A DNA stretch of 64,000 nt from Tessaracoccus caeni (lineage in GTDB: Bacteria > Actinomycetota > Actinomycetes > Propionibacteriales > Propionibacteriaceae), in the NCBI RefSeq assembly GCF_029211185.1, contig NZ_JARGDO010000001.1:221414-285413 (forward strand), in the 5' to 3' direction. The notes beneath the pieces were generated by a model. It saw nothing but the letters and a program-made list of their open reading frames with translations, searched no databases and was not told where the DNA came from. The position numbers and the translations under genes are program-made. Of this stretch, positions 4,256 to 10,980 are shown piece after piece; within the stretch, counting starts at the first letter, position 1, and each line of letters opens with the position of its first letter.

Positions 4256-4648
4256 TCAGCCGGCGCGCGTCGAGTACTTGTCGGTGTTGAAGATGGCGTT
4301 CAGCACTCCGGAGACGATGCTGACGATGATCGACCCCCAGACCGCGGGCCAGAACCCATCGACATAGAACCCGATGCCGACCAGACCGCTGACCCAGGCC
4401 GCGAACTCCAGCAGCAGGGCGTTGATCACCACGAGGAACAACCCGAAGGTGAGCACCACCAGGCAGAGTCCCAACGCCTGGGCGAAGGGCTTGATCAGCG
4501 CATTCACGACGCCGATGACGATGGCCACCACGGCCAACGAGAACACCTTCTCGCCGGTGGTGGCGGCATACAGATGGATACCGGGCACCAGCCAAGTGGC
4601 AGCCCAGACGCCGCCGGCCGTCGCGACGGTGCGGAGCACGAATTCCAT
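4256..4648 (-). CDS. Phage holin family (YvlD-like) membrane protein
   Basis: The 130-residue protein has four hydrophobic segments and matches the Phage_holin_4_2/YvlD pattern, with a conserved NALIKPF motif near residues 49-55 and ALLLEFAAW in the third helix. Despite the family name these are ordinary bacterial inner-membrane proteins, and nothing phage-like surrounds it. It starts 8 bases after the stop of the YccF gene, so the two form an operon. Its function is unknown; a link to envelope stress is only a possibility from other bacteria. Confidence 0.8.
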   Translation of the reverse strand: MEFVLRTVATAGGVWAATWLVPGIHLYAATTGEKVFSLAVVAIVIGVVNALIKPFAQALGLCLVVLTFGLFLVVINALLLEFAAWVSGLVGIGFYVDGFWPAVWGSIIVSIVSGVLNAIFNTDKYSTRAG

Positions 4649-4656
4649 GATGCGCC

Positions 4657-5067
4657 TCAGAACGAGTGCAGGGGGCGCTCGGTGGGAATGAGCGACCCAC
4701 GATCGACGATCCGCTTACCGAACGGGAAGCAGGACACGGGGATCATCTTGAGGCTCACCGCGGCGTTGGCGATGCCGACGATGGTGAGGGTCTGCCCGAC
4801 CGCGGCGACGATGTGCAGCAGCGCCAGCCACCATCCGGCGATGATGAACCAGATGCCGTTCATCAGAGCCGATCCCGCGCCGGCGCCGGGCTTGCGCACC
4901 ACCGCCTTGCCGAACGGCCAGATCACGTAGCGAGCCATCCGGAACGACGCCACCCCCACCGGGATGGTGACGATCAGGATGCATGCCAGTACGCCGGCCA
5001 AGAAATATCCGAGTCCGAGCCAGAGCCCGCCGAACAGGAACCAGATCAGATTGAGCAGGAAACGCAT
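4657..5067 (-). CDS. YccF domain-containing membrane protein
   Basis: The 136-residue protein has two copies of the YccF motif (NLIWFLFGGLWLGLGYF near residues 6-22 and NGIWFIIAGWWLALLHI near 70-86), each followed by a GxxxxxA/S-F-R/K-type basic stretch. This fits the YccF family of inner-membrane proteins. Four membrane segments are predicted by eye. It is the first gene of a two-gene unit with the downstream holin-family protein, and its 5' end faces trmB. No biochemical role is established for the family. Confidence 0.85.
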   Translation of the reverse strand: MRFLLNLIWFLFGGLWLGLGYFLAGVLACILIVTIPVGVASFRMARYVIWPFGKAVVRKPGAGAGSALMNGIWFIIAGWWLALLHIVAAVGQTLTIVGIANAAVSLKMIPVSCFPFGKRIVDRGSLIPTERPLHSF

Positions 5068-8035: not shown

Positions 8036-8566
8036 TTATCGCTTCTGATCACCTCGGCTCGCCGTGCTCACGACTCGTCGAAGGCCCCCTAGGATCCTGC
8101 CTTGCGAACCCGGCGCGACAGTCGCGTCGGGGAGATAGTGCGGGCTCACCTCGGGCGACATGACGTGGAACCCGGCCGCGGCCGCCTCGATCGCCGCCAG
8201 ATAGTTCGACAGCTTCGCGTCCTTGAAGAGGAACCCGCTGACTCCGGCCTCGGCAAGCTCCTGGGCCGGCACCTCCGCCCCAGAGGTGATCAAGATCACC
8301 TTCGGCGCGTTTTCTCTTGACGTCAGCTGCTGCGCCACCTTCACACCGCATTGCCCCGGCATCTTGATATCGACCAGCCAGACGTCGATCTCACCTTCGA
8401 AAGCGAGAGCCACGCTCGACTCGGTGGTCGTGATGACCAGATCCATCGACGGCGCGAGTTCGAGCGTGCTCTTCAGCACGCCGAGCGCCAAGGCGTCATC
8501 GTCGCAGACGCCGACCTTCAACCGAACTCTCGCCGACTCAAAGGCAGACTGATCTTGCATGTCCAT
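8036..8566 (-). CDS. Receiver-only response regulator
   Basis: The 176-residue protein holds a CheY-like receiver domain: acidic cluster DDD at 22-24, phospho-acceptor Asp66 in WLVDIKMPG, a Ser in the LITSGA strand and Lys in FLFKDAK. After about residue 140 there is only a 35-residue basic tail, with no LuxR/NarL helix-turn-helix, and the DNA beyond the stop runs straight to sodA. It starts 11 bases after a GGGGG stretch and its first 49 bases overlap the end of the upstream kinase gene, so the kinase and regulator are coupled. Its output is unknown: protein-protein signalling, sequestration, or a truncated former transcription factor. Confidence 0.85.
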   Translation of the reverse strand: MDMQDQSAFESARVRLKVGVCDDDALALGVLKSTLELAPSMDLVITTTESSVALAFEGEIDVWLVDIKMPGQCGVKVAQQLTSRENAPKVILITSGAEVPAQELAEAGVSGFLFKDAKLSNYLAAIEAAAAGFHVMSPEVSPHYLPDATVAPGSQGRILGGLRRVVSTASRGDQKR

Positions 8567-9612
8567 GACCCATTAACCCCCTTCGATTGGATCGACCCTC
8601 CTACAGCGCCAGCGCGGGCCTGCATTCCGGTGATCCCCATCCCGAGGCCCTTCCCTGAACCTCGGGTGCCCCCCAATGTATTAACGATAATAATAGCGAC
8701 ATTCGCGGGGGTAACTTCAACCTCCACACGGCAAGGTCCGCGACTATTTCCGTGTTTCACGACGTTATGTAGCGCTTCGGCCACAATACGTCCCGCCGCG
8801 AGGTCCACGTCGGGGGGAAGACGCACGATCCCGGGCCGCTCCTCCTCCACGATGAACCCAAGGCGCGTCAGCTCCTCAAGCCCTTTCGCGAGTGCGTCCT
8901 CGAAGGTGACGGGACTGGCCATCGCGCCTCGTCCCCCGTTCGCCAGCACCCTGGTGGCCTCTCGAAGCGCCTGATTGGCCGCTCGGGCACGATCAGCCAT
9001 ACGCTCCAGATCCTCCGTCGACGCACCACCCGTCGCCACGGCGAGGTCGGCATACCGGGACAGCAGCATCAGCTCGCGACAGACGGAGTCGTGCAGTTCT
9101 GTCGCGAGCGCCGCGTGGTCCGCCATGAACCGGGCAGTGACACGCGCCTCGGCCGCACGATCAGCCGCCCGCACGCCCAATCCGACAGCCCACAGCACCG
9201 CTGATAGAACCACCCAGCCGCCCACGATACGCACGCTCTCCGACGCCGTCGGATCACCGCGCACGGCGTTCATCGCGTGCCAACTGCCCAGGATCACCAC
9301 CGACGTGCTCAGCAACGCCGCCCATGCGAGGTGGTTGTGTCGCACGGCCGTGATCACGATGATCAAACTGAGATACAGCGACACCAGTTGCATGCCGAGG
9401 CCGAGAAACGGATTCAGCACCAGGAGAAGGAGCGCAAGGAGAACCCCTGCCCTCGTTCTCCGCTGTGCCAGCATGAGTGGAATCAACAGCAGCAGATCGG
9501 TGCTCGTTCCACCCCAAGGGGCACTGCCGGCGCTGACGAGCGACGCCAAGGCGACGAGCACTCCCAACGAGATTTCCAGGCCACCGGCTTTGAACCACGC
9601 CCTTGTACTCAC
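8518..9612 (-). CDS. Sensor histidine kinase, NarL/DesK type (first paralog)
   Basis: The 364-residue kinase has five or six N-terminal membrane segments with no large extracellular domain, a HisKA_3 dimerisation motif ELHDSV with the phospho-accepting His174, and a HATPase_c domain with N-box EALHNVVKHGN (Asn283). I chose GTG at 9610-9612 because it places the histidine at residue 174 exactly as in the neighbouring paralog; GTG codons at 9636 and 9666 are alternatives. It lies 16 bases downstream of the second kinase and overlaps the response regulator. It presumably phosphorylates that regulator. Confidence 0.88.
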   Translation of the reverse strand: MSTRAWFKAGGLEISLGVLVALASLVSAGSAPWGGTSTDLLLLIPLMLAQRRTRAGVLLALLLLVLNPFLGLGMQLVSLYLSLIIVITAVRHNHLAWAALLSTSVVILGSWHAMNAVRGDPTASESVRIVGGWVVLSAVLWAVGLGVRAADRAAEARVTARFMADHAALATELHDSVCRELMLLSRYADLAVATGGASTEDLERMADRARAANQALREATRVLANGGRGAMASPVTFEDALAKGLEELTRLGFIVEEERPGIVRLPPDVDLAAGRIVAEALHNVVKHGNSRGPCRVEVEVTPANVAIIIVNTLGGTRGSGKGLGMGITGMQARAGAVGGSIQSKGVNGSWTCKISLPLSRREFG

Positions 9613-9628
9613 AAGGAGCAACTCTACG

Positions 9629-10717
9629 TCACGCACCGTCCTGGGAGTGGGGCAACCACGCCTCACAGACCCATGACTCCTTCACCGGACGCGAATCCAG
9701 ACGGCCTCCGACCGCGGCGGCCCTGGCTTTCGCCGCAGAGAGCCCCACTCCGACGCCGGTGTCACCCGACCGCTCGCGCAGTGCATTGATCACCGTCAGC
9801 TCCCAGGCCTCTCCGGTCTGCTCGACGACCACGGTGCACGGGGCTTCAGTGCCCCCATGGCTCCGAACGTTGTGTAGTGCCTCGGCGATGATCCTCGCGG
9901 CGACCGCCGCGACGTCAGAGCGCAGCTCGCCGTGCCCTTGCTCGATCGCCTCCACAGAGAACCCCGCCCGTTTCAGCTCCCGGACGCCATGCGCAAGCGC
10001 CTGACTCGGGTTCATCTCCGACGCCGACGTCGACTTCAAGCCCTCAGCGAGCGCCCAGGTGGCTTGCCGGAGCGCCTGCTCCGCGGATCGAGCCCTGTCG
10101 GCGATCTCCTGCAGCGCTTCGGGATCCGCGACCCCTGACTCCCTGACCGCATCGGCCTGACGGGCCAACCGACTCAAGTCTCGGCTCACCGAGCCATGCA
10201 GTTCGGCGGCCAGCGCGGTCTGCTGGGCGTGGAAGCGTGACTCCACCCGGTCTGCCGCTGCTCGGGAGGCGTACCGGATGGCCAACCCACCACCCCAGAC
10301 GATGGCGGCGAGGCCGAGCCAGGAGACCAGCACGATCCCCAGGCCTCCCGTCACCACCTCGGGTTCGAACGGGCGCAGGCTCGCCCACACCCCCACCGCG
10401 ACGCCCGCGATCGTGATGACGACCGCGAGCGGGAACTCGTCGCGCCGGATGGCCGTGATGCAGGGAATCATGCAGAGATACAGCGAAAGGCCCGAGAACT
10501 CGGGGTCGACGAACGGCACCAATACCGCAACGAGGATCGCCATGCCCACGCCGATGCGCAGCCACCGTAGCGAGACGAGGATGGCGGCGACCGCGAGCAG
10601 ATCCATCGCAGTACTCGGCCACGGGAAGCGGTGAGCGCTCGCAAGCGAAATGATCGCGAGCACCAATCCAACGGTGGCCTCAAGCCAGCCCGCCTGGATC
10701 CACTTCAACGATCTCAC
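9629..10717 (-). CDS. Sensor histidine kinase, NarL/DesK type (second paralog)
   Basis: This 362-residue protein is a paralog of the downstream kinase along its whole length: polytopic N-terminus, H-box and HATPase_c domain. Its H-box reads ELHGSV, so the histidine (His174) is kept but the adjacent acidic residue, which helps catalysis in HisKA_3 kinases, is Gly. The ATPase N-box EALHNVRSHGG retains Asn. The GTG at 10715-10717 was chosen by alignment with the paralog; the frame is open 30 codons further up. It may be a poor kinase that works as a heterodimer partner or phosphatase. The 5' end faces the small secreted-peptide gene across about 120 bases. Confidence 0.85.
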   Translation of the reverse strand: MRSLKWIQAGWLEATVGLVLAIISLASAHRFPWPSTAMDLLAVAAILVSLRWLRIGVGMAILVAVLVPFVDPEFSGLSLYLCMIPCITAIRRDEFPLAVVITIAGVAVGVWASLRPFEPEVVTGGLGIVLVSWLGLAAIVWGGGLAIRYASRAAADRVESRFHAQQTALAAELHGSVSRDLSRLARQADAVRESGVADPEALQEIADRARSAEQALRQATWALAEGLKSTSASEMNPSQALAHGVRELKRAGFSVEAIEQGHGELRSDVAAVAARIIAEALHNVRSHGGTEAPCTVVVEQTGEAWELTVINALRERSGDTGVGVGLSAAKARAAAVGGRLDSRPVKESWVCEAWLPHSQDGA

Positions 10718-10836
10718 GCCGCTATCGTAGCGAGCCCCCTCTGGCCCCTCCTTCGCGGTAGGGCTTCTTGACGCTCCTGACCGGCCACATGCCGAGACGG
10801 ACAGCATCGGCGCCCCTCTTCACGCAGGCTAGGACC

Positions 10837-10980
10837 ATGAAGAACGCAATACTCGCCCTGTTACTGCTAGTCGGCCTCGTGGTCGTGCCCCAGCCGGCTC
10901 ACGCCGCCGAGGTCGACGTCGCGCCGCAGGCCTGGTGCGATCGCTGGTGGATACTGCCCTGGTGCCGCAACGCCGAGTAG
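10837..10980 (+). CDS. Small secreted peptide with a Trp-rich two-cysteine loop
   Basis: A 47-codon gene starts at ATG 10837 after an AGGACC ribosome binding site. Residues 1-23 form a textbook signal peptide: MKN, a run of Leu/Val, then a PQPAHA cleavage region. The predicted mature part is about 24 residues, beginning AEVDVAPQ and containing CDRWWILPWC, two cysteines eight residues apart around three tryptophans. A disulfide-closed loop is plausible. It reads divergently from two histidine kinases and ends 4 bases before the stop of a convergent glycosyltransferase gene. I recognise no family. A signalling peptide sensed by the adjacent kinases is an inference from position; a bacteriocin-like or structural role is also possible. 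Confidence 0.65.
   Translation: MKNAILALLLLVGLVVVPQPAHAAEVDVAPQAWCDRWWILPWCRNAE

Follow-up and report, generated by a model that had tools for sequence, protein, structure and literature searches.

Between positions 8,036 and 10,980 of a 64,000-nucleotide (nt) stretch of the Tessaracoccus caeni genome (contig NZ_JARGDO010000001.1, positions 221,414 to 285,413 of the forward strand; hereafter the window) lies a compact locus in which a small gene for a predicted secreted peptide stands divergent from two histidine kinase genes and a response regulator gene. The peptide gene (10837..10980, + strand) has 47 codons and encodes a precursor with a signal-peptide-like leader. A 119-nt intergenic region (10718..10836), presumed to carry promoters for both sides and with a best inverted repeat of only 5/7 matches, separates it from three genes on the - strand: K1 (9629..10717), a NarL/DesK-type histidine kinase with a polytopic membrane sensor; K2 (8518..9612), about 41% identical to K1 and in tandem with it; and a response regulator (8036..8566) that consists of a receiver only. 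All of these reading frames are open. The next gene after the peptide encodes a GT87 glycosyltransferase and converges on the peptide gene, so no effector operon follows. A first-pass annotation of this DNA had described a 47-codon secreted-type gene containing CDRWWILPWC divergent from two kinases, and scans for open reading frames (ORFs) and domains recovered every element of that arrangement.

The same annotation had called the kinases paralogous and NarL-type, with polytopic N-termini and no large sensor domain, a description that holds. Matches of K1 and K2 to HisKA_3 and HATPase_c score under the Pfam cut-offs, eight columns are invariant across 71 aligned family kinases (including K1 H174, E279, N283, N311, G325 and G338, which we take to be phospho-His, N-box and glycine-box (G-box) positions), and the catalytic residues are kept in both proteins; together with structural matches to DesK, these features identify both as NarL/DesK-type (HisKA_3) kinases. 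An AlphaFold2 (AF2) model of K1 (predicted local distance difference test score 89.6, predicted template modelling score 0.67) is polytopic, with short membrane helices and no extracellular domain, and this model, read with the positive-inside rule, suggests six spanning helices with the N-terminus inside. Foldseek searches with the model gave soluble DesK structures as the best solved matches; all solved matches listed were soluble kinase parts, the DesK chains of 179-219 residues aligning to part of the model. For the start of K1, homology makes GTG at 10717 more likely than ATG at 10807. K1 and K2 are sisters in the kinase tree (support 100/97), which makes K2 a local duplicate of K1.

The regulator matches Response_reg (E 2.3e-14) and retains the receiver residues in alignment, yet stops where its homologs continue into a DNA-binding region, in line with the earlier statement that it has no DNA-binding domain. 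A search for a remnant of the lost region had no convincing outcome, its best match (E 0.011) falling within other genes.

The peptide precursor (MKNAILALLLLVGLVVVPQPAHA/AEVDVAPQAWCDRWWILPWCRNAE) has a hydrophobic core of 14 residues and an AxA site, with predicted cleavage after AHA at residue 23 (10837..10905) to leave a mature peptide of 24 residues, and ends in CDRWWILPWCRNAE; signal-peptide and cleavage calls here and below are heuristic rather than from a trained predictor. A predicted disulfide ring, C34-DRWWILPW-C43 (10936..10965), conforms to a family motif described below, C-x3-P-x2-P-x-C, with W replacing the first proline. The precursor matches the family peptide profile at E 5.5e-12, a profile built with the window peptide included, and has relatives elsewhere. 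Queried from its second codon it matched no Pfam model at E<=1, and in NCBIfam the family peptides tried gave only irrelevant matches, at E 0.21-0.56 for three of them.

The pairing of such a peptide with such a kinase recurs across Propionibacteriaceae. Kinase homologs were gathered by kinase similarity from seeds nearly all of which bear a peptide, and part of the kinases listed were fetched. A first scan looked upstream for small ORFs whose leader is charged and hydrophobic, and imposed no cysteine rule; the cysteine motif emerged from it. The divergent ORFs found in this way carry the rings CDWWQFPWC, CDMAPWLPGC, CDLFPRFPGC and CRYFPTWPGC in the window's genome (G000; C44, C77, C2 and C11:118k) and genomes of the same genus; the rings CDVAPFLPFC and CQVIPWMPMC come from Tessaracoccus sp. 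OS52 and T. rhinocerotis. A later motif scan recovered further partners that the first scan had missed. In the window's genome itself four further loci (L051, L052, L053, L070) join a peptide of this sort to a related kinase, and the peptide profile gives five matches there at E<=0.01, each beside a family kinase; all five are in the profile, which was built from kinase-adjacent peptides, so that matches in those genomes are not independent. A peptide frame with a cysteine pair beside kinase orthologs in other Propionibacteriaceae was what the first-pass annotation proposed to look for, and the observation both holds and generalizes in that family.

The motif scan covered 700 nt before to 100 nt after each kinase start. 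The strict motif C-x3-P-x2-P-x-C, ending a short leader-bearing ORF, occurred in 40/80 kinase upstream regions and the looser C-x4-7-P-x-C in 46/80, compared with 1/3200 and 21/3200 dinucleotide shuffles, respectively. Among 850 genomic tiles the strict motif was present in 11, all within loci L052-L070, and the loose motif in 17, three of them in unrelated loci. The 29 best-scoring kinases outside the family had neither motif in either of their 1500-nt flanks (0/29, Fisher p 1.5e-7), and the comparison rests on these outsiders; a second control group (L017-L030, 0/14) is not clean, as L021 and L162 of the 80 are one kinase and further members of the group may be family kinases. The shuffles and the absence of the motif beside outside-family kinases rule out a chance ORF as the source of the peptide.

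Once further cysteine rings and downstream positions were admitted, 60 of 81 kinases had a partner (45 strict, 8 loose, 7 other rings), distributed over 48 genomes and nine genera by genus codes, with 42 partners divergent upstream, 12 co-directional upstream and 6 downstream. The 81 include four loci fetched through peptide matches (L244, L248, L256, L259), which makes 40/80 the cleaner figure, and near-copies remain in both sets (L057/L058, L061/L063). Peptide-bearing kinases are spread across the kinase tree, which needs 9 label changes where shuffled labels need 18.8 on average, showing that peptide presence along the tree is inherited, not random. One clade of family kinases with full-length regulators (L057 4971-6029 +, L058 4942-6000 +, L059 5198-6256 +) has no recognized peptide in the scanned flanks and may have lost its partner. 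When 394 genomes sampled from the class were searched with the peptide profile, the matches listed from outside the family were all weak, at E 2.6e-4 and worse, and the loci read among them were mostly leaders of larger secreted proteins, with one exception described below; a spread beyond the family was rejected. The kinase had no relatives in viral contigs or plasmids.

By the most frequent residue at each position, the rings of the 42 strict upstream pairs read C-D-[VL]-F-P-W-W-P-G-C, L being next in frequency at position 7. The first-pass annotation had proposed a test for conservation of the two cysteines and the tryptophans: the cysteine pair recurs beside the kinase relatives, whereas tryptophan is only partly kept, at position 6 in 17/42 and at position 7 in 22/42 strict rings. 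Variant rings such as CKLLPPLC, CNLFPMFC, CEILPILWWC, CFVLKWWPAC and others lie beside kinases of other branches (L164, L172, L175, L176, L179, L180) and vary in size and proline positions. At L249 (G156:C280) two differing ring peptides, CDILPWLPPC and CKHMPWLPGC, are encoded in tandem (4615-4722 and 4881-4991) upstream of one kinase. Across 58 distinct family peptides the hydrophobic core has a median of 15 residues, a strict AxA site is present in 30/58, and a proline lies between residue 10 and the ring in 56/58; on these features the family leaders look cleavable.

Regulators were surveyed over 85 kinase rows, corresponding to 81 distinct kinases (4 rows are repeats), at first downstream on the kinase strand only. 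A full-length regulator was found there in 65/85 rows, none in 18, a contig end in 1 and a receiver-only regulator in 1, the row of the window's K2, so that the truncated regulator is a peculiarity of the window locus. When both strands and sides were scanned for the 18 rows, 12 had a convergent or upstream regulator in the fetched locus, and five had none in the fetched DNA; the eighteenth is K1 itself. In the genus with code g8 (L276 and L277) kinase and regulator genes converge, and the regulator does not follow the kinase. Ten family regulators scanned all matched Response_reg (10/10), and 7/10 reached the cut-off for GerE, the LuxR helix-turn-helix domain; the regulator at L056 scores below that cut-off, and those at L052 and L053, both in the window's genome, do not match GerE and merely align over a C-terminal region. 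The usual family system is thus one kinase with an adjacent full-length regulator. Measured against this the window locus is atypical, with its kinase duplicated, its regulator truncated and no effector following, and the combination that the first-pass annotation singled out, while present in the window, is in its two kinases and receiver-only regulator a local state.

The ring is constrained and co-varies with the membrane domain of its kinase. Over 16 related peptide pairs, some sharing a sequence, the pooled ratio of nonsynonymous to synonymous substitution was 0.24 for the ring and 0.46 for the leader plus linker; the ring value indicates coding constraint, the lack of which had been named in advance as an outcome that would count against the peptide. 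In the 42 strict upstream pairs, ring distance tracks the distance of the kinase membrane half given the catalytic half (partial r 0.30, 0/2000 permutations), and the reverse comparison, ring against catalytic distance given the sensor, is about 0 (p 0.54). The co-variation persists after removal of near-copies (n=40, p 0.001), with each genus left out in turn (p 0.003-0.013) and with permutation inside catalytic-half clusters (p 0.009-0.022). Such co-variation of ring and sensor supports a putative ligand-receptor relation between peptide and kinase.

We hypothesize that these loci belong to an undescribed family of peptide signaling modules in which exported disulfide-ring ligands are sensed by membrane kinases, usually acting with a DNA-binding regulator, and we judge this to be rather probable, if well short of certain. 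The signal peptide would export the precursor and signal peptidase free its mature part; the two cysteines would close a ring outside the cell (CDRWWILPWC in the window), and the ring would bind the NarL/DesK-type kinase encoded alongside, at its membrane domain; the kinase would then phosphorylate the neighboring DNA-binding regulator. In typical loci this regulator may act on the divergent promoter, raising the peptide and effector genes together (autoinduction), the candidate effectors being export cassettes of the MacB type accompanied by small secreted proteins, large secreted proteins encoded in pairs, or Tad pilus genes. For the window, K1 would be the presumed receptor and K2 its duplicate. 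Because the window regulator has no DNA-binding region, output would have to run in trans through other regulators, perhaps the four full-length ones that belong to sister modules of the same genome, or through the receiver as a phosphate sink or protein-binding switch.

Several observations sit awkwardly with this hypothesis. No peptide was recognized for 21/81 kinases, K2 included; 6/60 partners lie downstream of their kinase and 7/60 rings fall outside the P-x-C pattern, and the window ring itself lacks the first conserved proline. The hydrophobic core is at least 18 residues long in 6/58 peptides, which could be anchors, and 28/58 have no strict AxA site. Five loci (L054, L055, L174, L176, L182) have no regulator in the fetched DNA, two of them (L054 and, from T. 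rhinocerotis, L055) being the window's syntenic relatives; in the window, L052, L054, L061, L063 and others, the gene that comes next after the peptide is on the opposite strand; and when peptides were permuted inside genera only, the co-variation gave p 0.13.

The main rival to a released peptide is one that stays anchored by its N-terminal helix and whose cysteine loop regulates the neighboring kinase in cis. MgrB, a small one-helix peptide with extracytoplasmic cysteines, is an anchored inhibitor of this kind that restrains PhoQ, a kinase of another class, in Gram-negative bacteria. The family peptides are of similar size, with one N-terminal hydrophobic helix and an extracytoplasmic cysteine pair, and co-variation with the kinase membrane domain would fit an anchored regulator equally well, as would the longer cores and the incomplete occurrence of AxA noted above. 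However, the median core length and the near-universal proline before the ring give the look of a cleaved leader, the ring evolves more slowly than leader plus linker, and five paralogous modules in one genome suit separate signals. On balance we regard anchoring as unlikely. It seems very unlikely that the peptide is a small bacteriocin whose kinase serves immunity or dose control by sensing it or envelope stress. Some loci do have exporters, likely lipoproteins and small secreted proteins as neighbors, and near the ring peptide of L243 a gene (1146-2756) matches TIGR01654, a bacteriocin-associated integral membrane protein, at E 1.4e-9, though with 37 bits where the cut-off is 189. The effector of those cassettes is more plausibly a separate, larger secreted protein, however; Tad pilus genes are also found after the peptide, which in the window stands by itself; and co-variation of ring and sensor is not expected from a bacteriocin alone.

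A further possibility concerns the window alone and is compatible with exported ring ligands in the family at large, namely that this module is a decaying remnant left after duplication and loss of the DNA-binding region. The truncated regulator, the missing effector operon and the lost ring proline would all fit, as would the two syntenic relatives at which no regulator was found (L054, L055). Against decay, the frames are open and the catalytic and receiver residues are kept, in both kinases and in the regulator, respectively, and at L054 and L055 peptide and kinase persist though no regulator occurs within the 12 kb fetched. We consider decay quite unlikely.

Peptide-kinase communication is best known from Bacillota, and the first-pass annotation had likened the window kinases to ComD and AgrC. 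Their NarL/DesK type makes ComP the nearer functional analog. In the ComX-ComP-ComA system of Bacillus a peptide signal acts on a polytopic NarL-type kinase paired with a LuxR-type regulator, and ComX, which lacks a signal peptide, has a tryptophan that ComQ prenylates. The family shares with it a peptide signal, a polytopic membrane kinase with a NarL-type catalytic part and a LuxR-type regulator (on the K1 model and the 7/10 regulators at the GerE cut-off, the window regulator being the exception), but its peptides have a signal-peptide-like leader and a conserved cysteine pair. No modifying enzyme was noticed beside the peptides, where neighbors were mostly read by eye, and none of six window neighbors scanned by domain is a candidate for one of the ComQXPA kind, ComQ itself not having been searched for. 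Agr likewise has a cyclic peptide signal and a membrane-only sensor, but its thiolactone is made by AgrB, its kinase is of a different class from the NarL/DesK type found here, and its regulator is of the LytTR type; AgrB (PF04647) had 0 matches in the window's genome, with a weak control, as 1/14 control genomes matched, below cut-off. The competence-stimulating peptide (CSP)/ComDE and Blp systems, which can control bacteriocins or competence, also combine peptide, kinase and regulator, and use a double-glycine leader and a C39 exporter, whereas the window leader is signal-peptide-like and by reading has no GG; the single C39 match in the window's genome is on contig C66 and the module on C11. 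Other DesK/NarL-type kinases are alike in the catalytic half; here a peptide gene adjoins. The module is thus set apart from the ComX, Agr and CSP systems and is classed as a variant of peptide-kinase signaling. By title or the opening of the abstract, we found no paper describing such a system in a body of literature that leaves out preprints and most subscription journals. If our hypothesis is right, Actinomycetota would gain a defined repertoire of synthesizable signal peptides, each with a candidate receptor, and Propionibacteriaceae a handle on the switching of export cassettes, large secreted proteins and Tad pili.

The genes that follow the peptide on the same strand in other loci are of three kinds. 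Export cassettes occur at L051, L053, L057/L058 and L070, supported in Pfam by an ABC ATPase and MacB/FtsX at L051, MacB/FtsX at L053, FtsX at L070 and a peptidoglycan-binding adaptor at L053 and L058; I36-like small secreted proteins are present at L053 and, below cut-off, at L051, and the lipoproteins of the cassettes and the HlyD-like character were assigned by eye. At L262, L268 and L269 the peptide is followed by two large proteins whose leaders are of the secretion type. Such pairs lie beside peptide-kinase modules of two genera at L052 (6772-12001) and L262 (1-5960), and one protein of each pair is weakly SpvB-like in Pfam. Tad pilus genes follow at L261 (SAF, T2SSE), at L270 (SAF/CpaB, T2SSE, two T2SSF, TadE) and, by similarity to these, at L271 and L274; in G162 they also follow the peptide, with an apparently frame-shifted first gene. 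The five Tad-linked peptide loci all fall in one kinase clade, that of genomes G169, G176 and relatives. As a family-wide rule the Tad link was rejected, since CpaB-like genes match in 179/195 genomes and a peptide is present at only 5/30 of the closest loci.

It is tempting to see in these loci an old and widespread peptide pheromone language of Propionibacteriaceae built on the C-x3-P-x2-P-x-C ring, with five 'dialects' in the window's genome, each with its own kinase and, typically, its own effectors, and with the peptide that heads the Tad genes in one clade as a candidate competence pheromone in an actinobacterium; this is a tentative proposal, less likely true than not. The link from Tad genes to competence is only a lead, drawn by analogy with Micrococcus luteus, which is outside the family, and Tad pili have other roles.

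Outside Propionibacteriaceae, a locus of another family (L313, G433:C15:1-9000) encodes in one direction, and in immediate succession, a secreted-type peptide (1618-1782) with CLVWKVKMLC, a NarL-type kinase and a regulator; 38 relatives contained no match to the peptide, and the locus is a lead only. Inverted repeats between peptide and kinase show no excess over single-base shuffles (6.12 vs 6.01 of 7 matches), and 8-mers common to the intergenic regions reach up to 7 regions, a number equaled by shuffles. In L147 and L148 the same perfect inverted repeat around TTGGCCA lies between a Tad-linked peptide and its kinase (GTTGGCC-N9-GGCCAAC in L147), a possible regulator site.

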